Shown here: in pieces, positions 6,670 through 25,048 of the stretch
Layout: each line of letters begins with the position of its first letter
Numbering within the stretch: position 1 is the stretch's first letter
DNA from: a virus
Strand: one strand, 5' to 3'
Length of the DNA stretch: 25,048 bases
IMG/VR virus record: IMGVR_UViG_3300030101_001032
Coordinates: 8,971 to 34,018 of that record
Notes under the pieces: generated by a model
Database searches by the model: none
What the model was told of the DNA's origin: nothing
The model's input: only the letters and a program-made list of their open reading frames with translations
Program-made: the position numbers and the translations under genes

Positions 6670-7678
6670 TACCGGCGTTTATTACCCTCAAGCAATTACA
6701 TTTGGGGCGCTAATAGACCCAAACATAAACCCACTGCGCCCAGCAGGTGAGTTCGTAGAGATACAGGAACTTGTTAACACAGCCGCATATATAAATACAC
6801 AGGTAAGCGATGCGACAGCTAGTGTGGTTGAAATGTCCTTGGGTGTGCCTCAATCAGCAACTAGCGTAGAAGGTCTTGTAGTTCCGGTAGCGGGGCGAAC
6901 AGACAGCCACAAGATAGACTTGCTTGAGGTGGCCTATTACAATCAGTCTATATTAGATACAGTTAACGCAAACTATTATTCAGCAGAACATTTATTGGTG
7001 GACTCTTATGAAGAAAATATGGATCAAATGGAAGCGGCTATTGAGATGTTCTCAGGAGCGGCTACAGAAATATCTAAGGCAGAAGCAATTTATAATGAGG
7101 CTATATCTGCTCAAACTGAAGATGAACGTATTGACCTTCAGAATTACATTCGCGCAAATGATGTGCAAATTGACCAGTCAACGGTACAAACCTTTAACCA
7201 ATCACTGGACGTCATTGAAGATAAAGCGCAAGCGGCTACGGCAAGTTTATGGGCAAGCCAAGATTCAGCAACCCTTGCAATGATTAACCATGATGCCATA
7301 GCTACGCTATCTAATATAACTAACTCTACTGTGGCATATGACGCTTGGTCTGATCAAATGACGATCACATGGGATAACGCTACTGATACCGTGTTACAGG
7401 GTGTTTTCTTTAACAATGAGGGCGCTGTAGGTTGGACACAAGCTGTTTCAGAGGTGTATGACGGTTTTTACGGCGATACTCCACCCGTCACAGTTAATGA
7501 AATGTACTCAGCATACTCCTATGGTACAGGTGAAGCGGTGGCATCTATGGGGTCTGGCTACAACGTAAACGCTAAATTGTATGACCCCGTGCAGTTAATA
7601 CAAGATGTTTTAGATGTCCAAAACGAAACGCCTACAACGCAGTTTAACAACGAAAATGGTAATCTAGGCGGTAATTAA
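6608..7678 (+). CDS. Exported acidic helical protein of unknown function
   Basis: A 356-residue protein from the ATG at 6608, giving a clean signal peptide (MKKKILAASLLASVSA). Starts at 6587 and 6602 are in frame but would add an acidic extension in front of the signal, so I prefer 6608. The GGAG at 6589-6592 is rather far upstream. The mature part is acidic and rich in Ala, Thr, Asn and Gln. Residues around 70-230 look like long amphipathic helices, and the C-terminal 50 residues are Asn/Gly/Thr-rich. No cysteine is seen in the mature part and no enzyme motif was recognised. It overlaps the preceding exported protein by 62 bases, so the two are probably a functional pair. It may act in the periplasm or in the virion. 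Confidence 0.75.
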   Translation: MKKKILAASLLASVSAPLSGDTGVYYPQAITFGALIDPNINPLRPAGEFVEIQELVNTAAYINTQVSDATASVVEMSLGVPQSATSVEGLVVPVAGRTDSHKIDLLEVAYYNQSILDTVNANYYSAEHLLVDSYEENMDQMEAAIEMFSGAATEISKAEAIYNEAISAQTEDERIDLQNYIRANDVQIDQSTVQTFNQSLDVIEDKAQAATASLWASQDSATLAMINHDAIATLSNITNSTVAYDAWSDQMTITWDNATDTVLQGVFFNNEGAVGWTQAVSEVYDGFYGDTPPVTVNEMYSAYSYGTGEAVASMGSGYNVNAKLYDPVQLIQDVLDVQNETPTTQFNNENGNLGGN

Positions 7679-8175
7679 TGGGCATTGAAGACATAGAATT
7701 AGATGTAGGTGGGACTAAGTTCAAGGGCATTTACATTGCCATACTCATGTCTTTTGCTACTACGATAGGCGGTGGTATATGGGCGGCAAGCGAGTTTGTA
7801 TCAAGAATAGACAATATAGAGGCTAATTTAGAAGCAACTATTGAGTCTATACCTGACATTGAGCCTATGGAGCTAGAATTAGCTTCCATTCGCACTAAAA
7901 TAGAGGATAATGACCTTGGGCATTTACAAGGTAAGCTCGCTGAACTTGACACACTACTTAATAGCATAAAAGAGCGACAAGCTGAAGTCTTGTCAAATGC
8001 CTCAGAATCTACAGCTAAAGTCAATACAATGGAAAAAGATTGGATTGAGGTTAGGAACGAATACAAAGCCATGGCCGATATGATTAAAAAATTTGAACAG
8101 GACGTACAAAAGTTTAGAAAAGAGGTTGATGACCTATGGAAAGGTCTTGATGCCGCTTCATCACCGTTGGGGTAA
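7678..8175 (+). CDS. Membrane-anchored coiled-coil protein (inner-membrane spanin-like or holin accessory)
   Basis: A 165-residue protein. Residues 17-38 (GIYIAILMSFATTIGGGIW) form one membrane helix after a short acidic start. Residues 42-155 are a long charged coiled coil (SRIDNIEANLEATIES, then EKDWIEVRNEYKAMADMIKK). This is the architecture of an inner-membrane spanin subunit, which works with an outer-membrane lipoprotein to fuse the envelope membranes at lysis. No partner lipoprotein with a lipobox is seen nearby, so the spanin reading is only a candidate. It starts by TAATG overlap with the exported protein and sits two genes before the holin. A membrane-tethered holin accessory is the alternative. 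Confidence 0.65.
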   Translation: MGIEDIELDVGGTKFKGIYIAILMSFATTIGGGIWAASEFVSRIDNIEANLEATIESIPDIEPMELELASIRTKIEDNDLGHLQGKLAELDTLLNSIKERQAEVLSNASESTAKVNTMEKDWIEVRNEYKAMADMIKKFEQDVQKFRKEVDDLWKGLDAASSPLG

Positions 8176-8178
8176 CTC

Positions 8179-8343
8179 ATGCCACACTATACTAAAGATT
8201 TAAACGAAATAATTAAAGGTTTAGAAAAAGCTTCTAAATTACACGCAAAACAAGCAAAACAATTACGTAAAATAAACGAAGACCAAAAGAAGAAGTTTAA
8301 AAACAAGCATGTGGCTAAAAAACCCGCAGGGAGAAAAAAATGA
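8179..8343 (+). CDS. 54-residue Lys-rich protein overlapping the holin start
   Basis: A small gene that fills the gap between the coiled-coil protein and the holin. It encodes 54 residues with 16 Lys and 2 Arg against 5 acidic residues (about +13 net charge). The first 35 residues form an amphipathic helix (DLNEIIKGLEKASKLHAKQ), followed by a basic tail ending GRKK. It has no membrane segment. The frame spans the intergenic space with no other candidate and its stop overlaps the holin ATG as ATGA, which argues that it is real. Seven A residues (8334-8340) precede its stop. A role in controlling holin translation or activity is inference. Confidence 0.7.
   Translation: MPHYTKDLNEIIKGLEKASKLHAKQAKQLRKINEDQKKKFKNKHVAKKPAGRKK
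8328..8343 (+). promoter_or_regulatory. Ribosome binding site and A7 slippery run at the holin start
   Basis: AGGGAG (8328-8333) is a good Shine-Dalgarno site six bases before the holin ATG at 8340. The run A AAA AAA (8334-8340), read in the frame of the 54-residue gene, is directly followed by its TGA (8341-8343). A -1 slip there would enter the holin frame exactly at its ATG. Seen: the sequence and the frames. Inferred: any slippage. Confidence 0.55.
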
Positions 8344-8816
8344 ATTTTGGCGCATTAAAAGGTGTTATTGGTGCAGTTGCACCCACGCTAGGCACAGCCC
8401 TAGCAGGGCCACTAGGTGGCACAGCGGCACAAGCTATCTCTGCTGTTTTGGGGTGCAAGAATGACCCAAAATCTATATCCACGGCCATGCAGTCCGCAAC
8501 CCCAGAGCAGTTGGCCGAGATAAAGAAAGCCGAGTTAGACTTTGAAGCACAAATGAAAAAGATGGATGTAGACATATTTAACCTGGAGACTGCTGATGTA
8601 CAGGATGCTAGACAAGCTTTTAAAGGAGACTGGACACCTAGAGTCTTTGGGTTGGTTAGTCTTTTTGGCTTCATTGGGTATATATTCCTCGTTACTATTC
8701 AGCCCCCCGACGCAAACAGCGATACTATTGTGTCTCTTGTGCTCGGCTACCTCGGAGGGCTTGTTTCAGGCATAAGTTCTTTTTACTTTGGAGCGAGTCA
8801 CGCAAAAGATGATTAA
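8340..8816 (+). CDS. Holin, GTA-type three-helix family
   Basis: A 158-residue membrane protein. Residues 4-38 are a Gly/Ala-rich hydrophobic segment, 55-92 a charged helix (TPEQLAEIKKAELDFEAQ), 102-120 a second membrane helix and 129-151 a third, followed by a short soluble tail. An early hydrophobic segment, a Glu/Lys linker with QDAR, the W-T-P-R motif and two late helices are what I know from the holin family with three transmembrane segments first described in gene transfer agents (Pfam GTA_holin_3TM). Holins permeabilise the inner membrane on schedule so the endolysin can reach peptidoglycan. The endolysin gene overlaps its end by 8 bases, forming a classic lysis pair. Confidence 0.85.
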   Translation: MNFGALKGVIGAVAPTLGTALAGPLGGTAAQAISAVLGCKNDPKSISTAMQSATPEQLAEIKKAELDFEAQMKKMDVDIFNLETADVQDARQAFKGDWTPRVFGLVSLFGFIGYIFLVTIQPPDANSDTIVSLVLGYLGGLVSGISSFYFGASHAKDD

Positions 8817-9227: not shown

Positions 9228-11579
9228 ATGCCACTAAGCAAGATACAACTAAAACCCGGCGTAAACAAAGAAGGCACTAGGTATAGTGCTGAAGAAGGCT
9301 GGAACGACTCTGACAAAGTACGGTTCCGCAAAGGTTTGCCGGAAAAGATAGGTGGGTGGCAACAACTGTCTACCAATGTGTTTCAGGGTGTTGCACGCTC
9401 TATCCACACGTGGCGTACTCTCGCTAGTAAACTGTACATAGGTATAGGTACTAACCTCAAGTTCTATATCGAGTCTGGTGGCACGTATAACGATATTACA
9501 CCGCTTCGTAAAGCCACTATTACTCTAGCCGCTAACCCCATAATTACAACAGCTAGCTCCACTACAGTGCGAATTATAGACACTACAGGTGGGTACGGTA
9601 ATGGTGATTTTGTTACATTTGGGGGCACTATAACTACAGTCAATGTTATAGCTCAAGCGGATCTTAAAGATAAAGAATTTCAGATAGCCTACAACGATGC
9701 AATAGCTACGGCAAAAGCAGATGGTTCTACTGGTAATCCCGTAACAATAAACACTATTGATGGCGCTTACTCCGCTATAGAAGTAGGTATGTTGATGACA
9801 GGAACCGATTCCAGTGCGGCGGCTGTTAGTGAGCGTGTAACAGGAGTTAGTGGTAGTGGGGACAGCACAGAAGTTACGCTAGCTACAGGTAAAAACTTTA
9901 CTACGGGAGCGGATCTAACCTTTTCTTTTAGTGATTCGTACACTGTAACTGTAGGTTCTACTTCTGGGGGCACGCCTGCTACTGGTGGAGGTAGTTCTGT
10001 AACTGCTACGTACAAAATAAACTCTGGTGACGAAGTACAGATAGCCGAAACTGGTTATAGCGCAGGGGCGTGGGGCGGCGGTGCTTACGGCACTGGGCTT
10101 ACCTCTGACTCTAATATACGTCTGTGGAGCCAAGCCAATTTTGGTGAAGACCTTATTTTAGCCTTTCGCGGTGGCCCATTGTATTATTGGTTCGGCGCTA
10201 ACACACTAACCACATTAGCTGTAGAGTTGGACAACAAAGATACAATAACAGCTACAAAAAATGGAACTATAAATGATAGCCCAACTCTTGTTATTAACAA
10301 TGCCTCTGTTCGATCAGGTAGTGCGGCTGTAATACAAGTTGGTATGATTGTAGGTGGCGTTACTGACATAAAAAATGCTGATGGTTCCGCCGCAACCGTA
10401 GCTCGTGTATTAACAGTAACAGACCAAAATAATTTAGTGTTAGACAAAACAGTAGATGCTGGTGATGGAGACACAATTACTTTTAAATATGACGTGCCAG
10501 CCAAGGTAAACAGGGTACTGGTTTCAGACATTAGCCGGTTTGTGTTCTGTTTTGGCACAACAGCTTACCTAGACGATTCTTATGTCATGGATCCGTTATT
10601 ACTACGTTGGTCAGACCAAGAGGATGCTAGCGATTGGATACCTACTACCACTAACTTAGCGGGTAGTTTACGTCTGTCTAGGGGCGGTGAGATAATTACT
10701 GCGGTACAGGCTCGCCAAGAAATACTTGTGTGGACGGATGCCGCACTTTACAACTTACAGTTTTTAGGTGCTGATGGTTGGGGGGCGCAGTTAGTTGGCG
10801 AAAACATATCTATAGCTGGGCCTAATGCGGTAGCGTACGCTAATGGTATAGCGTTTTGGATGGGTAGAGACAAGTTTTACACCTACGATGGTAACGTTAA
10901 ACCCCTACCTTCTAGCGTGCATAGGCACGTCTTTAATGACATAAACAATAACCAACTACAGCAAATTACCGCAGGTACAAACGAAGCGTTTAATGAGGTG
11001 TGGTGGTTCTATCCTAAAAATGAGTCCACAGAGAACGACAGGTACGTGGTGTATAACTATGTAGAAAACTTGTGGTATCACGGTACAGATATAAAACGCT
11101 CTGCCTGGGAAGATTCAGGTATCCGTAACTCACCAATAGCGGCAACTGTCACTACAAAAAACATTGTGGAGCATGAAGTAGGTAACGATGACGGCGAAAC
11201 TACTACCCCTACGGCTATAACAGCGTCTATTACTTCTGGTGAATTTGACATTGAAGACGGTGACAGGATGGCGTTTGTGTGGCGTATGTTGCCTGACTTG
11301 ACGTTTGATGGCTCTGATGTGGGCGCTCCTAGTGCTACACTTACAATAAATCCGTTAAAGAGTTCTGGTTCTGGATACAACAACCCATTATCAGAAGGCG
11401 GTAGTAATTTAGGCACGGTTATTCAAGGTACAACTGTCACAGTAGAGCCGTATACCACACAAATAGACACACGTATACGTGGTAGGCAGATGTCATTAAA
11501 AATAGAATCTACCGATATAGGAGTAAAATGGCAGTTAGGATACCCACGTATTGATATGCGCCCTGATGGGAGGCGCTAA
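9228..11579 (+). CDS. Tail hub / packaged-DNA stabilisation protein, P22 gp10-like
   Basis: A 783-residue, mostly beta protein. The N-terminus (KPGVNKEGTRYSAEEGW, then DKVRFRKGLPEKIGGW) and the middle (RWSDQEDASDWIPTTTN, LRLSRGGEIITAVQARQ, LVWTDAALYNL) are the hallmark blocks of the gp10-like or T7 gp12-like beta-propeller tail hub of podophages. This hub plugs the channel and carries the fibres. Between these blocks lie two homologous beta modules (about residues 175-235 and 351-422), each with a VGM-x-x-x-G strand and a closing L/ITF strand; they look like insertions. A GGAG at 9217-9220 precedes the ATG. Its stop overlaps the second fibre gene. It follows the endolysin, so the hub is separated from the neck genes by the first fibre cassette and the lysis block. 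Confidence 0.8.
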   Translation: MPLSKIQLKPGVNKEGTRYSAEEGWNDSDKVRFRKGLPEKIGGWQQLSTNVFQGVARSIHTWRTLASKLYIGIGTNLKFYIESGGTYNDITPLRKATITLAANPIITTASSTTVRIIDTTGGYGNGDFVTFGGTITTVNVIAQADLKDKEFQIAYNDAIATAKADGSTGNPVTINTIDGAYSAIEVGMLMTGTDSSAAAVSERVTGVSGSGDSTEVTLATGKNFTTGADLTFSFSDSYTVTVGSTSGGTPATGGGSSVTATYKINSGDEVQIAETGYSAGAWGGGAYGTGLTSDSNIRLWSQANFGEDLILAFRGGPLYYWFGANTLTTLAVELDNKDTITATKNGTINDSPTLVINNASVRSGSAAVIQVGMIVGGVTDIKNADGSAATVARVLTVTDQNNLVLDKTVDAGDGDTITFKYDVPAKVNRVLVSDISRFVFCFGTTAYLDDSYVMDPLLLRWSDQEDASDWIPTTTNLAGSLRLSRGGEIITAVQARQEILVWTDAALYNLQFLGADGWGAQLVGENISIAGPNAVAYANGIAFWMGRDKFYTYDGNVKPLPSSVHRHVFNDINNNQLQQITAGTNEAFNEVWWFYPKNESTENDRYVVYNYVENLWYHGTDIKRSAWEDSGIRNSPIAATVTTKNIVEHEVGNDDGETTTPTAITASITSGEFDIEDGDRMAFVWRMLPDLTFDGSDVGAPSATLTINPLKSSGSGYNNPLSEGGSNLGTVIQGTTVTVEPYTTQIDTRIRGRQMSLKIESTDIGVKWQLGYPRIDMRPDGRR

Positions 11580-13033
11580 TGGCGAACAATATAAAATTTA
11601 AAGCTCCCGTACTGCCTTCACCCCCACAACAGTACAACCAAAGCCTATTTCAACGGACTTTCAGCGTCCTACGCCTGTATTTTAACCAGATAGACAATCA
11701 GTTCCGTGAGAACCTAAACAGCCCTACTATTGATGGTGATTTAACTGTTTCTGGCACGGTCACTGCCCCAACTTTTGTAGGTGCTTTAACAGGCAACGCC
11801 ACAACTGCCACAACTGCCACAACTGCCACTTTAGCTTCTACTGTAACAGTCACGGACAGCACTGCAAATACAGACTTCCCTGTTGCTTTTCATAATGAGT
11901 CGAACGCGCTTTTAGACGATACTGGTGTTTTTGAATACAACCCCTCCACTGGTACGTTAAACACTACAAACGTGTCGGCAACAGGGACTATTAGTGCTTT
12001 TAACAGCACCTCCAATGCGGCACTACTTAAAGTAGGTAGAGATGATTTACAAGACATTACTATGTTTGGTGATGACCTTACTTTAACTATAAAAGCTAGG
12101 CAAGATAGTGATTCTAATGGTAACCATAGTTTTATATTAGATAGAGTATTTGGTGGTACTGGCCTAAGTGACTTCAGAGTACGTCATGATGGTAACGATG
12201 AGTTTGTTGTTTCAGATAATGGTGGTGCTGTTACAGCAACGCTTAATGGTGATTTTGAAATTATTAGTACTGATGCAGGTGCTACAGTTAATCCAATCCT
12301 TTCTTTATACCGCAACTCAGCAAGCCCTGCCGTACAAGACGATTTAGGTGCTATACAATTTTACGGCCAAGACGATGGTGGTAATAAAACTTTATATGCT
12401 CAAATCCATGGAAATATAGAAGATGAAACAGGTGGCACAGAAGATGGCCAAATTCATTTTTCTTGTCTTGCCAACGGTAGTTTAGAAGATCCAGTAGTAA
12501 CTTTTAAGAAAAGCGCCTTGGTGATGAGAAGTAGTAATGATGTAATACTAGAATCTGCATGTAATATAAGGTTTGAAGGCCAAAGTAATAACGCACACGA
12601 AACTACTTTTTTTGTTGAAGACCCTACTGCCGATAGAGAAGTAAACCTACCTGACGGTAGTGGCGTTCTTGAAATAGGTGCTTTAGCCAGTGGTGCTGTG
12701 GTAACAGGTACGTCTATAGCTCATGCTACTTTTTCTACCTATAAAGGCCAAAAGGTCGTGTTTACAGGCTCTAGTAACTGCACTATACAGCTACCAGACG
12801 TTGCCGCAGGTGATGTGGGCGCTACATGGACTGTTTGCAATGCTGGCTCTGCTAACGTCATATTTGACTTAAACGGCAGTGGTTCTGCACAAACACTTAA
12901 AATATTAACTGGCGCGGCAGTTACCACCGTAGGCACAGATGACCCACATATAATACCCGGAGGTGTGGCTAGTTTAGTATGCACAGCGGCAGATAATTAT
13001 ATACTATTTGGCTCTGGCGTGGTGGATAACTAA
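11579..13033 (+). CDS. Tail fibre protein of the second fibre cassette
   Basis: A 484-residue protein. The N-terminus (LPSPPQQYNQSLFQRTF, then LRLYFNQIDNQF) is a virion-attachment motif I know from marine-phage fibres. It is followed by a T4-fibre-like stretch (GDLTVSGTVTAPTFVG, GNATTATTAT) and a beta-helical shaft of about 250 residues with many Asp/Gly/Asn turns (EIISTDAGATVNPILSLYR, DDLGAIQFYGQDDGG). The C-terminal 100 residues (NCTIQLPDVAAGDVGATW, ending YILFGSGVVDN) resemble the end of the first fibre. The shaft has the look of the large fibres that bind host surface polymers. It starts by TAATG overlap with the tail hub gene, so stoichiometry may be coupled. No autoproteolytic chaperone motif was recognised. 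Confidence 0.8.
   Translation: MANNIKFKAPVLPSPPQQYNQSLFQRTFSVLRLYFNQIDNQFRENLNSPTIDGDLTVSGTVTAPTFVGALTGNATTATTATTATLASTVTVTDSTANTDFPVAFHNESNALLDDTGVFEYNPSTGTLNTTNVSATGTISAFNSTSNAALLKVGRDDLQDITMFGDDLTLTIKARQDSDSNGNHSFILDRVFGGTGLSDFRVRHDGNDEFVVSDNGGAVTATLNGDFEIISTDAGATVNPILSLYRNSASPAVQDDLGAIQFYGQDDGGNKTLYAQIHGNIEDETGGTEDGQIHFSCLANGSLEDPVVTFKKSALVMRSSNDVILESACNIRFEGQSNNAHETTFFVEDPTADREVNLPDGSGVLEIGALASGAVVTGTSIAHATFSTYKGQKVVFTGSSNCTIQLPDVAAGDVGATWTVCNAGSANVIFDLNGSGSAQTLKILTGAAVTTVGTDDPHIIPGGVASLVCTAADNYILFGSGVVDN
11801..11827 (+). repeat. Three tandem 9-bp repeats in the fibre gene
   Basis: Three exact copies of acaactgcc encode a Thr-Ala-Thr rich stretch after the fibre attachment domain. Simple repeats of this kind are common where fibre modules are joined. 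Confidence 0.9.
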
Positions 13034-13425
13034 TGGCTTGCGCAGGTGTAGTAGCCTCAGCAGGGGCACAACTAGATTTTACATTTATGACTGTGGGTAG
13101 CAGGACTTCAGGTAAAGCTACGTTTTTTGGGTTTAATAGTAGTACAAGCACAGGTAGTCTAAGCAAGACTTCGTTAGAAACACAAAGCGGTAATGCTAGA
13201 ACATGTACATTAATAGAGGATCAGGGCACAAATATTGTATTTACATTGACAGATGGTGAAGATAGTGACGCCGCTGGGTATAAAACACTGGTAATTGATG
13301 ATTTAATACTAAGTAGAAGTAGCAGAGCTAGTTTTAGTAGTGGTGCATGGGTTTATAGCACTACAAATGATGCAATAAGCTCCAACAATGGCAACACAAT
13401 AATTGTACAGTTAAGGGCAGATTAG
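13033..13425 (+). CDS. Small beta-rich fibre-associated protein (second cassette)
   Basis: A 130-residue Ser/Thr/Gly-rich protein. It begins ACAGVVASAGAQLDFTFM, continues with KATFFGFNSSTSTGSLS, then CTLIEDQGTNIVFTLTDG and LVIDDLILSRSSRASFSSG. Gly/Ser/Thr turns between short strands, and a compact module placed right after a fibre, suggest a fibre-tip or virion surface protein. The two cysteines (3 and 56) are not in a metal motif. It holds the same place in this cassette as the 175-residue gene at 4820 does in the first, but I cannot align the two convincingly. It overlaps the fibre stop as TAATG, and one base separates it from the next gene. Confidence 0.7.
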   Translation: MACAGVVASAGAQLDFTFMTVGSRTSGKATFFGFNSSTSTGSLSKTSLETQSGNARTCTLIEDQGTNIVFTLTDGEDSDAAGYKTLVIDDLILSRSSRASFSSGAWVYSTTNDAISSNNGNTIIVQLRAD

Positions 13426-13426
13426 T

Positions 13427-13906
13427 ATGAAGCTAATAAATGGTAGGGAACAGCAGTTAACACAGCCTGATATTGTAATGGGGGCTATGGAGAACGCTGG
13501 CTTGCTAAGTAATGAAAACCTTCAATATGTGTATACTCGCATGATGTTCCCGCAAACAGTGACTATACAAATAAACAACACCGTATTTTTATACAACGCC
13601 AAAGAAAAAGACGGCGCTTTATCTGCAATTTGTTCTGTATTTAACATAGATACTAAAGAACTGTTTGCTAGAAATATATTTGAGTTTTTTAAAACGTTAC
13701 AAGATAGAGACATACAAGTTGCCATTATGTCTACATCCGACGTAAATTTTTTACACGCTGTCCTTAGCGTAGCGCCAGATTTAAAAAAACACAATATAGC
13801 CGCTTCAGCGAAAGAAACTGATAAGGATGGCGCTGTGATGGCTGTTGCTGTGCTAGACGAAAAAAAGTACACAAAGAAAAAACGTAGGTCAAGGAGAACT
13901 AAATAG
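13427..13906 (+). CDS. Alpha/beta fibre-cassette protein with Lys/Arg tail
   Basis: A 159-residue protein: an N-terminal helix (PDIVMGAMENAGLLSNENLQ), strands (QTVTIQINNTVFLYN), then an alternating helix-strand part (FEFFKTLQDRDIQVAIMSTS, VLSVAPDLKKHNIAAS) and a very basic end (YTKKKRRSRRTK). It matches the last gene of the first fibre cassette in length, position and secondary-structure order, including a helix followed by an IQV strand. Sequence identity is low by eye. A GNAT-like or chaperone fold is possible, with no catalytic signature. It directly precedes the giant gene; the AAGGAG at 13891-13896 near its 3' end serves as ribosome binding site for that gene. Confidence 0.7.
   Translation: MKLINGREQQLTQPDIVMGAMENAGLLSNENLQYVYTRMMFPQTVTIQINNTVFLYNAKEKDGALSAICSVFNIDTKELFARNIFEFFKTLQDRDIQVAIMSTSDVNFLHAVLSVAPDLKKHNIAASAKETDKDGAVMAVAVLDEKKYTKKKRRSRRTK
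13891..13896 (+). promoter_or_regulatory. Strong Shine-Dalgarno site for the giant gene
   Basis: AAGGAG ends 11 bases before the ATG at 13908 and lies within the last codons of the preceding gene. It is one of the two best matches to the anti-SD sequence in the window; the other is at 5335-5340. Confidence 0.7.
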
Positions 13907-13907
13907 T

Positions 13908-16900
13908 ATGGTACTAGGACTCCTTGCCTCTATCGGTGCTTTTGCCGGAACGTTTTATATTGCTGATCAAGCTATAGAACTTTTAGACGATCTGTTAGAT
14001 GACGCCGTTGATTTTGTATTTGATCTAACAGAAGACGTATTAGACTTCTTAGAGCCGGTTACAAATTTTATAAGTGGCGCTGTAAATGCCCTAGCGGAAG
14101 ACCCTCTTCATGCCCTTGCTGTGATTACGGCAATAGTACTAGGCCCAGCGACGGGGTGGGCAAGTTTAAAAGCCCTGCCCTACATAAATGCAATAAAAGT
14201 AAAATCAGACGGTGGTTCATGGGGTGACGCCTTTAAAGCGGGCGCAACAACTTATGTCACACAACAAGTTTACGCATCAACTAATGTACAAGGGTTAGAA
14301 GCCTCAACAACGGTTAGTGTTACAGACGCTTTGGTGCAGGCAGGGCTAGACCCAAGTTTAGCGGCTAGTATAGGTGACGTACTAGGTGCCGCTACTTCCG
14401 CAGGTGTTGCTCAAGGATCTATAGAACTCGTCATGGGTGGTAGTTTTAGTGACGGTTTTACACAAGGAGCTACCATAGCAGGCGCCACAGCAACGGTAGC
14501 GCAAATAAATGGTTACCTACAAGAAAACTTACCTGACTCATTTAAATATGAAGGAGTTACTAGAAACTCACAAGGGCATGTGATAGACGAAAGCGGTAAT
14601 CGTGTGTACAACCCTGGCGTGGGTGGGGCAGATGACATCACTAGCCCTACGGGTGCGACAGCCGCAACCTCTTTGCAAACCATGCCTCCAGTAGTACAAC
14701 AATTGTTATCAGATGCTTTAGCCGCAGAGTTACAGGGGCAAACCATAACCAGCGAGTTAGTAACTGGGTCTTTAGCTAAACACTATGTAACCACCGAAGT
14801 TGTTTCCGCTGGGTTAGAAAAATTAGGAGGGGTGGCTTTTGACTCTGATGAGGGGCAGATACTTTTATCTTACATAACCTCTGGCGTACAGAAAACAATA
14901 GGTGAGGTAGCCGCATCCGGGCTTAGTTACCAAGCGGGGGTAAATTTTACTAACAATGTAATGGCTTCCATAAGTCAATATGGCTCAGATCAATTATTCG
15001 CCCAAACATTAGATTATTTAGACAACAACGTTGCTGTCCAAGCGGCTATGAATTTTATAGATGGCGCTTTGCGCGGTAACTTAGACCAAGTAAAACAAGC
15101 GACGGAAGATTTTGAAACCGCTCTAAACATATATAGCGGTAAGGTAGATCAAAACAACGAACTCATTACTGAGCAAAACCGTTTAAGTGTACTTTACAAC
15201 GACGCAGTTGATCTTTTTAAACAGGGAGGAGATGGTATAAGTGGCGCGGCCTATTTAAGTTTACTTGACCAATGGAACAATAGTGTAGGTGAAGACGGAA
15301 AACCAGAAAGTTACCCTTCTAATAGCGGAATATTTAATAGTTTTGAAGAGTTTTACAGATCCGAAGCCGCCCAAAACGGTTACGCCTCGTATGAGCAAAT
15401 GCAAGTGGGTATAAAATTAATATCTAATACCCAAAAAGATTTAAATAAATTTGTTGAAGATAATTCTGCAACAATGGCAAGTCTTAATAACGACCTAAAA
15501 TTTACATATCAAGAAGCAGATGATACGTTAATAGCCAACGGCACCGCAGGTATAGACTATGTAATAGAAACGGTAGAAGAAATAGACCCAGAAGCTGGAT
15601 CTATTGCCGTAGACAAATATTATGTGTTAGGGGCGAACAACAGAAAAATACCTACCAGTGCGGCGGCTACTTACCACGAGTCTATTGGTATATGGAACGA
15701 CGCTCAAAACACGTTAATGTCCGATATAGATTACTTAGGTGACGAGTACCAAGCTGACTTTATACAATTTACACAAGAGGATTTTGTAAAAATAATAGCG
15801 CCTTCGTTTGATAAAGACGAATATATAGCTATGTATAGCGCTCAAATAGACGAAAATTCAAACGCGTTTAAAAACTTTATTGAAGAGGGTATAAGAAATA
15901 AACATTTTATAAGTGAAAGCCAAAAAGATGCAATTTATGAAAGCCAAAAAGCACAATTTAAACTAAACGTCGCTAAAACATACTTACCTGGTGTAACTAA
16001 TCCACTACAAAAATTATCTGTGGCTCAACTCCAAGCACTTGATCAGTTTGTAGATGATGAGTTTGACATACGCATGAATGCTACGTACAGCACCGATAAC
16101 TACGCATCTTGGGGGGATTACTTAACAGCTATTACACCTGTCTATAACGACAGTATAAACGTAGTCATATCACAACTAGAAGCGAACCAATTATTTACAG
16201 ACAAACAGCTTATTCGTGATAGCGAAGCGGCGGCAATTGAGTGGATTGGTGATGCTAATGTAACTGAAAATACATTAAATTTACTAAGTTCTGGTGGTAT
16301 TGCGTTTAACAGTGACGGTTCTTTTAAATATAGCTTTGGTGCACAAGATAGTAATAACAATATTTTAAGTATTGTTAACCCCGAAACAGGTTTATCAGAA
16401 ACACTATTAGATGGTATTAGCTTTGATCAATTAGAAGAAGAAGACCCCTATTCTTTCTTTCAAACGGTTAGTGATGTCTTTGGTCATTTTGGCGAAGCCT
16501 TAGCTCCTGGTATGGATGCACAAAACCAATTTTATGCTATACAGGCTGAGATTGCTCTAGCCTCCACACAACAGATTATAGATACCGCAAAAGTTGCTAG
16601 GGCAACTGCTTTGCACTTTGGGCAAAACGCAGATAGAAAAATAATAGAATACCTACTTAAACGTAAACTTGGCGCAGATGATTTCGCTACACAACTATCT
16701 AACTTGGCCGATCCAGATAACATTTACGGATTAGTTGATTGGAGTGATGAAGGATTTACCGCTAAATATGACGCTCTTTCCGCAGGGCTAAGAGATTTTG
16801 TCGCAGGCGCAAAAACAATCCCAGGGAATATTGGATCGTTGGGAGTGCAAGCTATAGCTGGGACGGCGCAAGCTATAAATGGTGCGGCGGTTATGCTCGC

Positions 16901-19900
16901 CGATTTAGCCACAGAAGCGTATTATGACGTTGACTTAGACTACACTTTAGATACTGACCCTGTTCACAACTTTCTTGAAAACATACTTACCAACGCTGAA
17001 AGTTGGAAAAGTGAAAGTTGGAAATCTAACGCCGCAGACTTACAAGTAGCCCTACAAGCCCGCGCCGTGGATGACCCGAATACGTTAGCAAACGAAGCTG
17101 TATGGGGGTCTGCCGAATTGATTGGGGGTGCGTTTGCAGATCAACCGCTAACATTCTTAGGTGAAATATTATTTAAAGAAGGCGTGCAAGAGATAGTGCC
17201 TGCATTGGTAGGAGGTGGTATAGGCTGGATTGCGGGTAAGGCAGGCGCAAAAGCGCTTGGCCACCAAGTAGGGCAAAAATTTGCAATGCAAGCTGGGTTT
17301 GTAGGAGCCGCCGCTATTGACATTGCTGAAAGTATGGGAGGCACCGCCGAGGAAGCGTATGACACAGCCTTTGCAGTCGTAAGAGATGCGCTAATAAATA
17401 GAAATACTAAACTAGAAGCTAACGGACAAACTCCTTTAACCATAACTCAAATTCATTTAGCCGCTGAACACTACGCAAAGGATATATCTACAAAAAACGC
17501 TTTGTTTGCAGGTATGGCAACAGCGGCAACGTTTATGGTTCCAGGGAAACCTGGTGCGGCCCTCGACACTGCTTTTCTTAGGGCCATAAACAAAGATGCG
17601 TTTGCTATTTATGGTGGCAGAATAGTAGCGCAAGAAATGCTAGCTGAAGGATTTGAAGAGGGGTTAATAGCAAACAATTTAGAGGGTTTGTTAGCGGAGT
17701 GGGATCCTAACCGCAATGTGTCAGGTAATGTGTGGTTTGCATCTACCATGGGCGCCCTTGTTGCAGGGCCGATTACCGCAACCATGGTTGGGTTTATGGG
17801 GCAAAACCCTGGGTTTGATGATCCAGGAAATGAAGATTTTACATTACCCACACAAACGGAAATTACTGGTAGAACTAAACCCCAATCTACAGGTAACCTT
17901 GCCGCAGATGTCTTGTTATTAACTAGCCCAGATTTAGCGTCGGCTGTGTACTCAGGCAGTGCTGATGTGCTTGACACACTAACCGACCTTGGGATTGATT
18001 ACGACATAGCTTCATCATTGCAAGATGCCGCAGATGACACAGATTTTACGGGTCTTTTAGGATTACCAACACTGGCAGATAACAACAATAACGATAATAT
18101 TGGCACGAACCCTGTGCCACCTGATTTTTCTACTTTTCCTCCGTCTGTGGCTAATGAACTATATTATGATGCGGCAACAGACACTACGTTTATGGGTGTA
18201 GCTGGTGGTTGGGAAGAAAGAGGTAGAGGTAATAATACAACTTCTGAACTCGCTACTTCTTTAGAGTTAGGTGATGATTTTCACACTGCAAATGCAACTA
18301 CAATACCGGACTCTTATACGCCTAATAGTCTTACAACTATACCTGCTTCCCGTAAAATTATAATAGACCCTATCACTGGAGCGTCTTATTCTTATACTTT
18401 TGCTAAAGGTAACAACACAGCGGACTTGCGGATTGCGTACGAAACTCTTCTTGACGCTATTGATGATCCAGAAACTGAATACACTCGGGGAATGTACGAT
18501 ACGGCAATAGAACAAGTACGAGAAACGCCCTTGGAACGATTAGAAGTTGTTGTAACCGACGTCCCACAATTAGATACGTCTTTGTATGCTTTACCCCCTA
18601 GCTACGAGCATACAATGTACGATGAAAGTATTCAAATTAGGGGTCACAAGAGATACGCCTTACCGTTAGCTTTTGAAGACGGGTATCAGCCAGAATACAT
18701 GACGTTAGACCAAATGGAGAACATTATTAACTACAATGCCACGATGTATTTGGATTCTGGCATGTACGGTATAAACGATGAGCCGCCTGACTCTTACCAA
18801 CAACAAATGCAAGACAACTACATAGGGGCGTTAGAAACCTTTTATCCGTTAATTCAACGAGAGCGAGAAAGGCTGGGACTGCAAAATTACGATCAACAAA
18901 ATCCAAGTGAATTGGAAGAGATAGAGTTTGATCGGTACTCAAACAACGCACGACGAACTGATTGGTTTGATGGGGTGCCTTATTTATTACGCACTGTAAA
19001 TCACAAGCGCCATAATGAAACAATGACCATAGATGATGCTCGGTACTTTTATAACCTTGCACTCCGCTTTATAAAGCCACCATCACTCACGAATTCGGAG
19101 CCTAGCGACCCCGCATCGGGGCGACTGAGTACAAGGCTTAGACAAGAGCTTAATTACACACAAGAAGTATACGACGGTTTAATATCTCCAGAACTTTTAA
19201 ACGAATATTTATGGCATACAGAAGTTCTTGGTGAGGACGGGCTACCCGATGCTAGAATAGATGAGTTACTTGCCGCTGAAGGCGCCGCAGGTCGTGGAGT
19301 ATTTTATTGGTTAGGGTTTACTAATCCTTTCGCACAAGAACTCGTCGATAGAACAGGACTTAGAAGGTTTTCGACTGCAAATGACACTTTTAAAATAGTT
19401 GACGGGTTGTTAGTGCCTGATACTTATTTTTCTACGGTTCATGGAGAAAATTTAGCTGACGACCCAGCGTACGATGGGGATTACATACCTACTGGTGAAG
19501 ATTTACTAAACGCCATATACCCAGGAGGAGTGGTTAGCGATGGTACTGGGCGCTTTGTACCTAAAGTAGACGTAGATACCATATACGACAGTTGGATGGA
19601 CGACCCTAGATATGATCCTTTCGCGGGTAAAAGTCCTAACGACAGTGAAGTGTATTGGCAGGATCCCATTACTGGTATTCAGTACGTGTGGGGTATGCGC
19701 CAAAGAAATGGATTAGCTAATGATTACAGCGTGGGGCATCCGAGAACAGGTGATAACGGAAGATGGCAACGTGTAATTTTGAACTATGTAGAAGACTCTC
19801 GCTACGGCGCACAAGATGAGTTTGGCAATCCCCGAAACACTCATTTAGTATATTTTCCTACGGGTGTTGGCCCTGGCGGTCGTGATGTGGGTCTAAATTT

Positions 19901-22900
19901 AACCGGTGAAGAAGGTAAGCCCGATGCTCCATGGCCTTCTGATGCGGGTTTATTTCCTTCGTCTGCAATGACTGATCCTGACGATCCTTTGCATATGAGA
20001 CAAGGTATAACAAGGCAAGGTGATTCAGATTTACTTGGGCATCTTTACAACCACGATTTTGATAATTTGACTGAGCAAGAAATGCGGCAAATTATTATAG
20101 ACAACCCTCGTGCGTATGGGTTTGACTATACCCCTATTATAAACAACCCTGCCTACCATTATAAAGACCAGGGTGTAACTAGCAATGATGCTAGAAGAAT
20201 GCTAGAAGAAAATGGTATAGATCCCGATGTTTACTATAAAAGTTCTGATCAGCCGTATATAAGTGTATTTTACACCGATATAATGAACATGTCTCTTGAA
20301 GAGGTACAGCGTAGACTGTCCGAACCCCCTCCTCCACCAGAAGGTTGGAATCAAGACGATAAAATTATAGATTACTTTACAGCCGAAGCCGTCGCAAATG
20401 GTTGGACTGTGCTTGATACACGCAGTTATGTATTTACTAACAGAGATAACATATTAGAAACAGTAAGTGACTTTGACCTTACTAGCACTAGCTTTGCAGA
20501 TGCGTTCGATAATACGTTTGTAAATAACGTAGATACAAGTAAAAACTTCGCTAATATAGACGCATCTCCAGCACTTTCGGCGCGTACAATGCGCAACTTG
20601 TTTATGGACAAGTATAATCTTACTGAAGATGAATACTACGCCATGATGAAGAGTGATGCCTACGGAACTACAAAAGAAGAAATAGACACTGCAATTAATA
20701 ATTACCTACGCACAGCGGTGCAGGTTGACGAAGACGGTAATCCAATATTAGATGCGTTTGGTAACGAAGTTAAAGGCGTAAAGGCAGACAGTGAGTTTGT
20801 AGAGACTCTTGTAGCTAATAATGTTAATACAAGAGACAGCATAATAGCGGCGTACAAAGAAGCCTACGGGCAGAATTATGAACCCAGCGAAGAACAAATA
20901 AACAACTACTTAGGCGCAAACTTTGGGGTAAGTTTTGGTGATAGTAACAATCAACTACCCGAAGGTGAGGTAGGTAACCAAATTGGTAAACCGACTGCCT
21001 CTAACATAGATCAACTTACTATTGGTACTACAACTCCTGCCGAACAAGCGGACATAATTTCAACAGCAACTGCTGGATTGTCGCAAAGTGAATTAGACAG
21101 TTTGGGTGACTTAAATCGTTTAATTGACCCTAACAAAAACGTTAGCTCAAACGAAATTGTAATACAACAATTTATAAATAGGCAACAAGCCTACAACAAC
21201 CGCTTAGAAATAGCGAAATCTAATATACGCGCCGCTTTACAAGATGTCGAACGAGAGTCTGGGTATAAAAAATATTCAGACAAAGACAATGCGTGGGTAG
21301 AAGCTAACTTTACTGATTTACTAGATGTTATTAACGCTAGACCCAGTAAACGACCAGAAGGCAATGAAATACAAGACGCTGTAGATGCGTTTTTAGTGGC
21401 CGATAAAGAAACAGGTGTAGCCGCTCTTAAAAACGCCATGGGCGATGTGGGCGTTGATTCCTTTGCTCTAGGGGGAAACCCAGAATTAATTAAAACTAGG
21501 CTAGCTGAAGCTTTATGGAGTATAAATGGTGACGCAAGTGATGCCGCCGCGCTAAACCAACTAGCAGTAGATTTTAAAAACAAGTGGGGTTATGGAGCTA
21601 GTTTAAATGATTTATTTAGGTTAGGCCATGATGTCATAAACCAAGACTTGTATAAGCAAGACGGTGATTGGACTAGAAATCCTGACGACTACCCACGCAA
21701 TCCAAATTACGCTTTGGGCGATAATCCCTTTAGCCGTGGGTACAATTTATATCGTAAATACGATTACGGTGGTAGTAACACCGCACCAGACTTAGATACT
21801 TATGGGCCTGCTAGCGCCACCTTTGAACGTGTAAAAGCTGAATTTATAAGTAGGTTTGGCTACACGCCTGATGACGCTGAAGTTAGACAGTTTACAAATA
21901 GCGCGATAAGAAACTTACTTGCGGTTGCGGATGGGTCGGGAATACCTATTGAAGACGACGGCTCACCTTATTTTCTTTTTGAGCAAGAAATAGATGCTTA
22001 TATAAACCCTCGCCAGCTAAGTAACGCTGAAGCCGAGGCAATAATATTAGGAACGTTTGCTAAAGGCTCACCCCAATATAATGCGTTAATGGCTAAATAC
22101 GGCAACAAGATGGGTGGTGTAGGGTATCAAGATACACAAACAGCCGCACTAGAAGCTGAAATACTTACCTTATCAGCACGGGCAAACATAGAATCTGACA
22201 TAATTGCATTACTTAACGATGGCACTAATTTTGACGGTGGCACAGCCTTTGACCCTACCAAAGACACTGGCGCATATCTTGTAAGAGCTTACGCAGATAA
22301 AATAGAAGCTGGCGACTTTACGGGTACGTCAGACCCAGCGTTACTTAATGAAATAAAAAAATCAGTAAACGCCCGCCGTTATATGGCAGATGAGCTAGCA
22401 CAGGATATAAAAGACGAGTTAGGTTTATCTGAAACATTAGAAGAAATAAAAAATGATGCCGCGTATGCTAGCTTGTTTAACACGTTAGTTGACGAAGACG
22501 GAACAGTTGACAACCCATACAATTTTCAAACTCTTCAAGAACAAACATTGGACGATGCTACTGTTTCACAAGCCGAAGCACGCGATTACTTTAGGGACAT
22601 CTTAGGCTACGACCAAGGTTGGATGCCTACATGGAATATAGATAATAGAGTTGCTGGTGTAGGAGATGAAGCTACTATACTACCTGATGACCCTAACGCT
22701 ATAGCAGGCGATGTATTAGATATATTTAATAAAACCACTGTCACTAGAGACGATATAGAAAACGAGTTAAAGAACAACCCTACAAAATACGGGTTTAAAG
22801 ACAGTGCCGCTGTGCAAGCCGCGATTGCTGGTGGGTTAGATTTAACTAAGTATGAAGGTAAATACTGGAAAGACAATGGTAAAAGTAACAGTGGTGACCC

Positions 22901-25048
22901 TATCTTACAAGCGGCGTTTACTGGGTTAGCGCCGAAGTTAGACGCGGATACAACCACTGCAAGAGAGTTAAGAAATTACCTACGTGACCAAGGGTTTGAC
23001 ATGGGGTCGGTAGAGGACGGTGATCTAACTAATTTTGCGGCCTTACAAGCCGCAGGTATGTCAGACGCACTAGGTTTTAACACTGACCTAGAAAACACGC
23101 AAAGTGTTATTGACTACATGGATGCCAATGAGATAACAGGCGATGAGATACGTAACCAAATCGTTGCTGAAACAGGCGTCAATATATACGAAGAAGACGG
23201 GGTAACACTCAAGGCTGAGTTTACAGATCAAGCCTTAACAAACGCTGGGTTCCTAGTTGATACAAAAGGTAGAGATGGTTACCAAGCCGCAGAGTTAACA
23301 GGCAACGTTGCCGATAACACTATAAGCGAGTCTGATATAAGAGCTTGGTTAGGTAACAACGACTACGCCGCACCAGGTGCCGGAGCAGATTTTTCAGGCT
23401 ACGTAGGGTTAGGCACAGACATTGCTGGGCAGGCAGGTCAATATGTAACTGACGAGGGTTTAATTACCCAAACACAAACAACGATAAATAACGAACGACA
23501 AGCGGTACGCGACTACTTTGACACAGCCCACAGTTACTTTGATACAGATGCGGCTGTTGACCTTGACGTTGATGCGCTACGTAATGCTGACACTGCAACT
23601 ATGCAAGCCGCAGTCAATGCGTTTGTAAATACTCAATATACCTACGAAGGTGAAGCGCGTGACTATCTAGCTAGTTTAGGTTTGACGGACGTTTTAGCTA
23701 CAGACCCAGACACTGGTAATTATATTGTACCTAATTCAGAAATAAACAATTTAATAGGTCAGTTTGGTACGCCTGAATTAATAACCCGTGCGGCAGAGGA
23801 AGGCGGGTACTTTGACCAGAACGAAGTTACCTTCGATGAGATAAGAGAGCAAATTGCTAACGAGTTAGGTGTAGTCCCTGCAACGCTATACGATGAAAAT
23901 GGCGATCCTATAGCTGGGTACACAGACACCGATATAACCAACGCTGGGTTTACACAAGGTGTGAACGTTGCAGAAACTGGCCTTGGTGCAGAGATTACTG
24001 ACAACGTACTAACAAGAAGTGACATTGAGAATCACTTGCTTGGTTTAGGGTACTCCGAAGAACAAATAACTAATTTTGACTCCAGTAATATTGCCTGGGA
24101 TGACACCACTGCGTTAGATACGCTAACGGCTGACTTTCAAAATCAATATAGAAACGCAACACAACAAGCGATTGCGGCTGATTTAGCAACTAATTTTGGT
24201 TGGTCAAACGCAACTGATGCCGACATAGCGGCTGTAGCAGATTTAGATGCCACAGGACGTGAGGCGTGGGTAGGCGACAGAAGGTTTACTCCAGCACAAG
24301 CCGATACAGCGCTTGCGTTACAAGGCATAACCCCAGAGAGCATAGGACAAGCACGTTATGACACATTGCGTAACGGGTTAATAGTCGATCAAGATAGAAC
24401 AGGCAACGTACCTGCTACACAAGCCGCGCTAGTCGATAGCGTTGAAGACCCATTACTTGACCCGTTCTTTATTACTCCTGACGAAGTAGCTACTGAATTT
24501 GGTAACTATACTTACTTTGACGCTACAGGCAATACCATACCTACAGGTTTAATTGACGAGAGCGGGCTTGGCACTACCGTAGAAGCTTATGTAAACGCCA
24601 ACTATGTAACTGCTGATGAGGCACGCGCCGCGTTAGATGGCGTAGCAGGTGTAGATGCGTACGAACTTAACGATCCAAATGATCCTGATTCTGGCTACGT
24701 AATAACAGACCAACAGCTACTTGACGCAGAATTAGCTGGCCAATATGTAGACACCGTAGAGAACCAGGCGCTTGCAGGGAAAGTTCAGACTCTTACGACA
24801 GACGAAACCGAAGCTAGGGATTTACTGATAGAGCAGGGTGTTCTAAATCCGAGCGCCGCAGACATACAAAACTACATGGGCTTCACTCCAGAAGCGCCTA
24901 CATTTACACCAACTGATATAGCTGACCTGCGCTACAGAGGTATATTGGAGCAGTTTGGCACACCTGCGGTATACAGTGATACGGAAACAGACCAAGAGGG
25001 TAACCCTGTCTTAGTAACCCCAGCAACTGGTATCTACGCCGAAATCGA
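13908..25048 (+). CDS. Giant internal virion / ejection-type protein (3' end outside window)
   Basis: One open frame of 3,713 codons with no stop, still open at the window edge; I followed the frame throughout. N-terminus (1-150): hydrophobic and amphipathic helices (LASIGAFAGTFYIADQA, ALAVITAIVLGPATGW). Residues 150-950: helical, soluble and acidic. Residues 961-1300: Ala/Gly-rich hydrophobic segments (VQAIAGTAQAINGAA, LVGGGIGWIAGKAGAKA, AGMATAATFMVPG, TMGALVAGPITATMVGFMG) with EGFEEG at 1247-1252. Residues about 1401-2146: a Tyr/Trp/Pro/Arg-rich module with unusual Arg codons. From 2146 on: helical units with T-x-x-E-x-R motifs, one long pair being clearly duplicated. No transglycosylase, peptidase or polymerase motif was recognised. 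Its size, position after tail genes and membrane-compatible core resemble ejected inner-core proteins (T7 gp16 type). The function is inferred; a giant polyvalent or tail protein is the alternative. Confidence 0.75.
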   Translation, partial: MVLGLLASIGAFAGTFYIADQAIELLDDLLDDAVDFVFDLTEDVLDFLEPVTNFISGAVNALAEDPLHALAVITAIVLGPATGWASLKALPYINAIKVKSDGGSWGDAFKAGATTYVTQQVYASTNVQGLEASTTVSVTDALVQAGLDPSLAASIGDVLGAATSAGVAQGSIELVMGGSFSDGFTQGATIAGATATVAQINGYLQENLPDSFKYEGVTRNSQGHVIDESGNRVYNPGVGGADDITSPTGATAATSLQTMPPVVQQLLSDALAAELQGQTITSELVTGSLAKHYVTTEVVSAGLEKLGGVAFDSDEGQILLSYITSGVQKTIGEVAASGLSYQAGVNFTNNVMASISQYGSDQLFAQTLDYLDNNVAVQAAMNFIDGALRGNLDQVKQATEDFETALNIYSGKVDQNNELITEQNRLSVLYNDAVDLFKQGGDGISGAAYLSLLDQWNNSVGEDGKPESYPSNSGIFNSFEEFYRSEAAQNGYASYEQMQVGIKLISNTQKDLNKFVEDNSATMASLNNDLKFTYQEADDTLIANGTAGIDYVIETVEEIDPEAGSIAVDKYYVLGANNRKIPTSAAATYHESIGIWNDAQNTLMSDIDYLGDEYQADFIQFTQEDFVKIIAPSFDKDEYIAMYSAQIDENSNAFKNFIEEGIRNKHFISESQKDAIYESQKAQFKLNVAKTYLPGVTNPLQKLSVAQLQALDQFVDDEFDIRMNATYSTDNYASWGDYLTAITPVYNDSINVVISQLEANQLFTDKQLIRDSEAAAIEWIGDANVTENTLNLLSSGGIAFNSDGSFKYSFGAQDSNNNILSIVNPETGLSETLLDGISFDQLEEEDPYSFFQTVSDVFGHFGEALAPGMDAQNQFYAIQAEIALASTQQIIDTAKVARATALHFGQNADRKIIEYLLKRKLGADDFATQLSNLADPDNIYGLVDWSDEGFTAKYDALSAGLRDFVAGAKTIPGNIGSLGVQAIAGTAQAINGAAVMLADLATEAYYDVDLDYTLDTDPVHNFLENILTNAESWKSESWKSNAADLQVALQARAVDDPNTLANEAVWGSAELIGGAFADQPLTFLGEILFKEGVQEIVPALVGGGIGWIAGKAGAKALGHQVGQKFAMQAGFVGAAAIDIAESMGGTAEEAYDTAFAVVRDALINRNTKLEANGQTPLTITQIHLAAEHYAKDISTKNALFAGMATAATFMVPGKPGAALDTAFLRAINKDAFAIYGGRIVAQEMLAEGFEEGLIANNLEGLLAEWDPNRNVSGNVWFASTMGALVAGPITATMVGFMGQNPGFDDPGNEDFTLPTQTEITGRTKPQSTGNLAADVLLLTSPDLASAVYSGSADVLDTLTDLGIDYDIASSLQDAADDTDFTGLLGLPTLADNNNNDNIGTNPVPPDFSTFPPSVANELYYDAATDTTFMGVAGGWEERGRGNNTTSELATSLELGDDFHTANATTIPDSYTPNSLTTIPASRKIIIDPITGASYSYTFAKGNNTADLRIAYETLLDAIDDPETEYTRGMYDTAIEQVRETPLERLEVVVTDVPQLDTSLYALPPSYEHTMYDESIQIRGHKRYALPLAFEDGYQPEYMTLDQMENIINYNATMYLDSGMYGINDEPPDSYQQQMQDNYIGALETFYPLIQRERERLGLQNYDQQNPSELEEIEFDRYSNNARRTDWFDGVPYLLRTVNHKRHNETMTIDDARYFYNLALRFIKPPSLTNSEPSDPASGRLSTRLRQELNYTQEVYDGLISPELLNEYLWHTEVLGEDGLPDARIDELLAAEGAAGRGVFYWLGFTNPFAQELVDRTGLRRFSTANDTFKIVDGLLVPDTYFSTVHGENLADDPAYDGDYIPTGEDLLNAIYPGGVVSDGTGRFVPKVDVDTIYDSWMDDPRYDPFAGKSPNDSEVYWQDPITGIQYVWGMRQRNGLANDYSVGHPRTGDNGRWQRVILNYVEDSRYGAQDEFGNPRNTHLVYFPTGVGPGGRDVGLNLTGEEGKPDAPWPSDAGLFPSSAMTDPDDPLHMRQGITRQGDSDLLGHLYNHDFDNLTEQEMRQIIIDNPRAYGFDYTPIINNPAYHYKDQGVTSNDARRMLEENGIDPDVYYKSSDQPYISVFYTDIMNMSLEEVQRRLSEPPPPPEGWNQDDKIIDYFTAEAVANGWTVLDTRSYVFTNRDNILETVSDFDLTSTSFADAFDNTFVNNVDTSKNFANIDASPALSARTMRNLFMDKYNLTEDEYYAMMKSDAYGTTKEEIDTAINNYLRTAVQVDEDGNPILDAFGNEVKGVKADSEFVETLVANNVNTRDSIIAAYKEAYGQNYEPSEEQINNYLGANFGVSFGDSNNQLPEGEVGNQIGKPTASNIDQLTIGTTTPAEQADIISTATAGLSQSELDSLGDLNRLIDPNKNVSSNEIVIQQFINRQQAYNNRLEIAKSNIRAALQDVERESGYKKYSDKDNAWVEANFTDLLDVINARPSKRPEGNEIQDAVDAFLVADKETGVAALKNAMGDVGVDSFALGGNPELIKTRLAEALWSINGDASDAAALNQLAVDFKNKWGYGASLNDLFRLGHDVINQDLYKQDGDWTRNPDDYPRNPNYALGDNPFSRGYNLYRKYDYGGSNTAPDLDTYGPASATFERVKAEFISRFGYTPDDAEVRQFTNSAIRNLLAVADGSGIPIEDDGSPYFLFEQEIDAYINPRQLSNAEAEAIILGTFAKGSPQYNALMAKYGNKMGGVGYQDTQTAALEAEILTLSARANIESDIIALLNDGTNFDGGTAFDPTKDTGAYLVRAYADKIEAGDFTGTSDPALLNEIKKSVNARRYMADELAQDIKDELGLSETLEEIKNDAAYASLFNTLVDEDGTVDNPYNFQTLQEQTLDDATVSQAEARDYFRDILGYDQGWMPTWNIDNRVAGVGDEATILPDDPNAIAGDVLDIFNKTTVTRDDIENELKNNPTKYGFKDSAAVQAAIAGGLDLTKYEGKYWKDNGKSNSGDPILQAAFTGLAPKLDADTTTARELRNYLRDQGFDMGSVEDGDLTNFAALQAAGMSDALGFNTDLENTQSVIDYMDANEITGDEIRNQIVAETGVNIYEEDGVTLKAEFTDQALTNAGFLVDTKGRDGYQAAELTGNVADNTISESDIRAWLGNNDYAAPGAGADFSGYVGLGTDIAGQAGQYVTDEGLITQTQTTINNERQAVRDYFDTAHSYFDTDAAVDLDVDALRNADTATMQAAVNAFVNTQYTYEGEARDYLASLGLTDVLATDPDTGNYIVPNSEINNLIGQFGTPELITRAAEEGGYFDQNEVTFDEIREQIANELGVVPATLYDENGDPIAGYTDTDITNAGFTQGVNVAETGLGAEITDNVLTRSDIENHLLGLGYSEEQITNFDSSNIAWDDTTALDTLTADFQNQYRNATQQAIAADLATNFGWSNATDADIAAVADLDATGREAWVGDRRFTPAQADTALALQGITPESIGQARYDTLRNGLIVDQDRTGNVPATQAALVDSVEDPLLDPFFITPDEVATEFGNYTYFDATGNTIPTGLIDESGLGTTVEAYVNANYVTADEARAALDGVAGVDAYELNDPNDPDSGYVITDQQLLDAELAGQYVDTVENQALAGKVQTLTTDETEARDLLIEQGVLNPSAADIQNYMGFTPEAPTFTPTDIADLRYRGILEQFGTPAVYSDTETDQEGNPVLVTPATGIYAEI
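19099..19138 (+). other. GC-rich imperfect hairpin inside the giant gene
   Basis: CCCCG (19109-19113) and CGGGG (19117-19121) form a five-base stem with a three-base CAT loop. An outer AGCCT (19099-19103) pairs with AGGCT (19134-19138). The region is GC-rich compared with its surroundings and codes for a Ser/Pro/Gly/Arg stretch. There is no U tract, so a terminator is unlikely. Confidence 0.4.
23130..23354 (+). repeat. Protein-level repeat copy 1 in the giant gene
   Basis: This 75-residue unit begins EITGDEIRNQI, carries TNAGF about 36 residues later and ends near SDIRAWLG. It aligns with a unit starting 693 bases downstream. Identity is clear at protein level but weak at DNA level. Confidence 0.7.
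23823..24044 (+). repeat. Protein-level repeat copy 2 in the giant gene
   Basis: This 74-residue unit begins EVTFDEIREQI, carries TNAGF about 38 residues later and ends near SDIENHLLG. It matches copy 1 in order and spacing with a two-residue shift, showing an internal duplication. Confidence 0.7.

Follow-up and report, generated by a model that had tools for sequence, protein, structure and literature searches.

A giant cysteine-free protein, probably of ejection type, at a variable-size gene position of short-tailed phages

What does a short-tailed phage do with a reading frame of 3,713 codons placed behind its tail genes, and could one such protein do the work of several? The question is raised by a stretch of viral DNA of 25,048 nucleotides (the window), which corresponds to bases 8,971-34,018 of the 34,018-bp record IMGVR_UViG_3300030101_001032. 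The frame begins at ATG 13908, stays open to 25046 of 25048 and takes up 44% of the window. An earlier note, made from the letters alone, had described this frame correctly and proposed that its product (here the giant) replaces all separate ejection proteins as a one-piece DNA-ejection machine. Across dozens of related loci the genes follow the order gp10-like gene, fibre, slot 0, I, II, III and IV, and the giant is assigned to slot 0. The features of the window used below are as follows.

9228..11579, + strand, P22 gp10-type tail hub; matches phrog_3287, named 'stabilization protein' in relatives; starts the tail/ejection block
11579..13033, + strand, tail fibre or needle-like gene directly 5' of the ejection cassette; assigned by synteny, no PHROG match
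13033..13425, + strand, small gene between the fibre and the giant
13427..13906, + strand, 159-aa gene directly 5' of the giant; similar-sized gene in relatives, no PHROG match
13908..25048, + strand, giant slot-0 protein; 3,713 aa seen before the contig ends, 3' end missing; complete homologues of 4,251, 3,780 and 3,388 aa
13908..15197, + strand, N-terminal Ala/Gly-rich domain (N-domain), residues 1-430; motif GxSFSDGFxxGA; defined by alignment and iterated HMM
15588..16607, + strand, helical middle region, residues 561-900; conservation limited to the closest relatives
16845..18317, + strand, Ala/Gly-rich core, residues 980-1470; common to the compact relatives of 1,681 and 1,863 aa
20826..24881, + strand, repeat region, residues 2307-3658; about nine degenerate helix-loop-helix units of about 30 aa

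The tail hub match bears out the tail-gene setting that had been read from the letters. The contig upstream carries portal, GroES-like co-chaperonin, scaffold-like, major head protein and lysis genes leading to this hub, along with a partial gene which, judged from its sequence and outside any family-library comparison, is terminase large subunit-like. The GroES-like gene lies in the head block (L002:3626-4066) and also occurs in relatives such as CRP-902 and Pag-Yong1. At 308-444 of the window a 30-bp tandem repeat of 4.6 copies was found within a Lys-rich 182-aa gene (GGKVKKGMAV units), which adjoins other small, very basic genes.

The giant is a real coding gene. With 3 of the 64 codons being stops, simple arithmetic gives a stop-free run of this length a chance of about 1e-77. 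Relatives keep the frame, and three stretches aligned with the closest of them have dN/dS values of 0.35-0.49; it is on this conservation and these ratios that we take the gene to be translated. The dN/dS values and the independent contigs rule out a chance frame or an assembly artefact. Since the contig ends where the window does, the gene is truncated, and extrapolation from the closest relative predicts a total of about 3,990 aa, of which about 280 residues would be missing.

A first viral scan with a single protein as query gave no match. The relatives were recovered via the tail-hub protein, the C-terminal part and a profile of the N-domain; the tail-hub query led to 80 related loci and to annotated phages, among them DSL-LC04, HTVC023P and Roseobacter phage CRP-902. 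Three relatives carry complete giants. The closest, K (IMGVR_UViG_3300025168_000174), has the same gene order and a protein of 4,251 aa that is 75% identical to the window giant over residues 3237-3713 (the last 477 seen) and runs 276 residues past the break, into a C-terminal domain with an EF-hand-like motif and a C-terminal peptide. The other two are A (3300031975_000054), with 3,780 aa, and M (3300025108_000383), with 3,388 aa. Two compact relatives, B (1,863 aa) and C (1,681 aa), have the core and the C-terminal domain, and C also has the N-domain; both are without most of the repeat-bearing insertion of about 2,000 aa.

Beyond these contigs the giant had no known family, fold or isolate homologue in the searches made. 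Neither four pieces of it nor its relatives had a match above cut-off in Pfam and PHROGs; no match was obtained against the PDB by sequence and profile, nor in a tblastn search of 50,697 phage records with its two ends and a compact relative, and no relative was found in bacterial and archaeal genomes. Relative A gave a weak match to HNH_repeat that stayed below cut-off (E 1e-4) and was not accepted as homology. Comparison with T7 gp14/15/16, P22 gp7/20/16 and N4 gp50 gave no convincing sequence match for the giants.

The N-terminus of the protein is hydrophobic, with the only two TM-like stretches of the giant at residues 1-19 and 69-87, and Ala/Gly content peaks at 26-28% in residues 1-250 and 1001-1250, the latter within the Ala/Gly-rich core that had been described. 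The claim of a repeat-built C-terminus is weakly true: the units (consensus YVTEDEARAAFIAEDFGYTPTDAEITNYLG) are degenerate, and the tandem-repeat check found no long DNA tandem array in this region. The protein is acidic, with a pI of 4.1. AlphaFold models of giant residues 1-1200 and of K residues 3480-4251 had mean pLDDT of 43 and 46, a low confidence at which they were used solely to say that the giant is modelled as almost all helix; a fold search with them gave no usable match, only poor matches to tape measures.

The acidic pI and degenerate repeats, together with the place of the gene after a fibre gene, could also suit a long repeat protein on the outside of the particle, as a tail appendage or adhesin. 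The giants of loci L096, L105 and L085 have near their C-terminus a dockerin/EF-hand-like motif, YDVNxDGIVDxxD (at K 4078, M 3214 and A 3597), which suggests calcium binding by the C-terminal domain and would fit such an appendage. Such a location is nevertheless improbable, since the giant is modelled (at low confidence) as helical throughout, has an N-domain in common with small proteins, rich in Ala/Gly, that are encoded in this position, and resembles the ejection genes in having no cysteine, in contrast to the 484-aa fibre of this phage with its 5 Cys.

No indirect evidence for ejection of the giant is stronger than its lack of cysteine. No cysteine occurs in its 3,713 residues, where about 28 would be expected from the other genes of the window (P about 8e-13), and the giants have 0-1 in 3,388-4,251 residues. 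The trait extends over the whole cassette, with 0 Cys in about 7,380 residues in A, 0 in 5,108 in B, 0 in 5,358 in C and 1 in 7,743 in K. Among the related loci, which are partly redundant, cysteine is absent from 71 of 79 I/II proteins and from 71 of 77 of type III/IV, whereas all 92 gp10-like proteins contain it. In T7, P22 and N4 every Cys-free ORF of at least 450 aa is an ejection protein (gp15 and gp16; gp20 and gp16; gp50 and gp51, respectively); below 450 aa cysteine is also absent from scaffolds, from the major head protein of N4 and from some small virion proteins, so the trait is not exclusive to ejection. Published comments relate the absence of cysteine in the giant injected vRNAP to its way through the tail and the periplasm (PMC3715699, PMC2784036). 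A Cys-free test may offer a simple route to ejection genes in unannotated phage genomes. The slot-0 relative L074 (5523-7940) is an exception to the rule, with 22 Cys in Cys-rich repeats (CGEGKVRNAxGICVNIDCGEGKYWDP).

Does the giant then replace the other ejection proteins? It stands at the start of the ejection cassette and, as the earlier note had observed, no other ejection gene is present in the window; this second point is an effect of truncation, because the contig ends inside the giant gene. All three complete giants directly precede a gene for I or for a I/II fusion, and III and IV follow in K and A. In K the giant is followed by proteins of 884 aa (I/II fusion), 544 aa and 2,064 aa (polyvalent); in A by 715 aa (I/II), 692 aa and about 2,195 aa (LPD39 with a DarB-like C-terminus), the last pieced together from two overlapping loci; in M by the gene for protein I, where the locus ends. 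Protein II of DSL-LC04 matches phrog_4287, 'DNA ejection protein' (E 7e-9), as does protein II of ct7L0027, where it is fused to a lytic transglycosylase (E 9e-11). Separate ejection genes, which the earlier note had named as evidence against its own proposal, are thus present in the genomes of K, A and M. One-piece replacement is contradicted in all relatives open to such a check; on these gene comparisons it is not supported for the window phage either, and we regard it as extremely improbable. What stands of the proposal is the ejection-related role itself, with indirect support.

The last gene of the cassette is itself of giant size in other relatives (L091, L090 and L089: polyvalent-type, 2,248 to 3,105 aa), so a second giant-size protein is common in the group. 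In the 2,064-aa protein of K (L097:938-7132) residues 475-531 match an FtsK gamma domain (PF09397, E 3e-19); such domains orient DNA, and one would not be expected in a phage protein that is ejected.

The polyvalent/DarB-like nature of protein IV in K and A raises another possibility, namely that the giant is an injected cargo and not a conduit: a packaged multidomain effector, polyvalent-type or an enzyme like N4 vRNAP or DarB, acting in the host cytoplasm outside the DNA channel. Besides the polyvalent gene IV in the same cassette, length differences of more than tenfold in one slot are what cargo would be expected to show and a measured channel would not, and the size resembles N4 gp50 (3,500 aa, 0 Cys). 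Like the giant, gp50 is huge, Cys-free and encoded with other ejection-block proteins (two further Cys-free virion proteins, gp51 and gp52), and polyvalent proteins are likewise huge phage proteins among virion genes. In Pfam, however, no LPD, enzyme or other effector domain was found above cut-off in the giant; the LPD domains of the cassette lie in gene IV. N4-type vRNAP identity was rejected, there being no sequence match to gp50 and no Pfam match, and isolated DxxGR matches only in place of the T7-type motif set (T/DxxGR, motifs A, B and C). The domains which the giant has in common with small slot-0 proteins are Ala/Gly-rich and not catalytic. We consider the cargo reading rather unlikely, though a more serious competitor than an external appendage.

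Slot 0 is either absent or filled by a gene of 314 to 4,251 aa, and where it is absent, protein I is often longer (571-1,134 aa). DSL-LC04 and HTVC023P-type phages have the same tail hub and the ejection block with protein II (phrog_4287 in DSL-LC04), but no giant; DSL-LC04 has a 759-aa protein I with no gene of the giant kind before it. The iterated N-domain profile of the giant reaches slot-0 proteins of 314, 363, 647, 806, 860 and 1,336 aa, some of these links lying close to the threshold. The C-terminal peptide follows a pattern, GGx[ILV]...DELLxLL at the extreme end and often SPYG about 20 residues earlier, which occurs in 12 of 668 complete ORFs of at least 200 aa, all 12 of them slot-0 genes; the pattern having been derived from this same family, the count measures its specificity and is no independent discovery. 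The slot-0 subfamilies L032, L041, L044 and L059 have different C-terminal ends. In the window giant the N-domain is present, and the C-terminal peptide and the place before I, which lie beyond the break here, are seen in K, A and M. By these sequence links the giant would be an extreme member of a slot-0 family ranging from 314 to 4,251 aa. In one of the loci, L063, two gp10-like tail-hub genes were found in one contig a few kb apart (2324-4447, 707 aa; 6905-8770, 621 aa).

The same range of lengths, among phages with the same tail hub, is unlike a ruler and makes a tape-measure-like assembly factor very unlikely. This idea draws on the poor fold matches to tape measures and on protein I of DSL-LC04, which matches tape-measure PHROGs over a short C-terminal stretch; the giant itself has no PHROG match.

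The best explanation is that the giant is an internal virion protein of ejection or pilot type, about 3,990 aa in length, working with several separate ejection proteins encoded just downstream; we hold this to be probable. Its membership of the cassette is supported by its position in the ejection cluster behind the tail hub and by protein II, which is phrog_4287 in annotated relatives, and an ejection-type role is likely from this position, from zero cysteine as in known ejected proteins and from the helical, acidic make-up. The T7 proteins gp14, gp15 and gp16 and the P22 proteins gp7, gp20 and gp16 similarly lie behind tail genes, are mostly helical and have no or nearly no cysteine; they differ in size (gp15/gp16 types 431-1,337 aa) and have no detectable homology with the giant. 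The sizes of T7/P22-type ejection proteins are fast-evolving (PMC8954989).

A possible course of events may be outlined. The giant would be packaged in the head, where the C-terminal peptide seen in relatives (...SPYG...GGxI...DELLxLL-end) may dock it and hold it in the particle. At infection its Cys-free helical chain would, as the composition suggests, thread the tail and cross the periplasm in unfolded form; the N-terminal domain and the core, both rich in Ala/Gly, may contact or cross a membrane, the repeat region would serve as a long spacer, and the protein would act together with the ejection proteins whose genes are expected just downstream, beyond the contig. A more speculative extension, doubtful in our judgement, is that slot 0 is a plug-in position in which the shared C-terminal peptide docks proteins of any length between about 500 and 4,251 aa into the particle, to be ejected. 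Phages could then freely exchange or extend the ejected chain, up to a spacer of about 430 kDa that spans the envelope. If true, this would make the peptide a packaging signal of a new kind, placed at the C-terminus of ejected proteins.

If confirmed, the giants would join the N4-type RNA polymerases as a second family of proteins of about 4,000 residues that short-tailed phages eject, and one with no known homologue. The tenfold size range at the locus, the shared C-terminal peptide and the Cys-free cassette (0-1 Cys in 5,100-7,700 residues) would then offer direct access to the loading and threading of ejected proteins.
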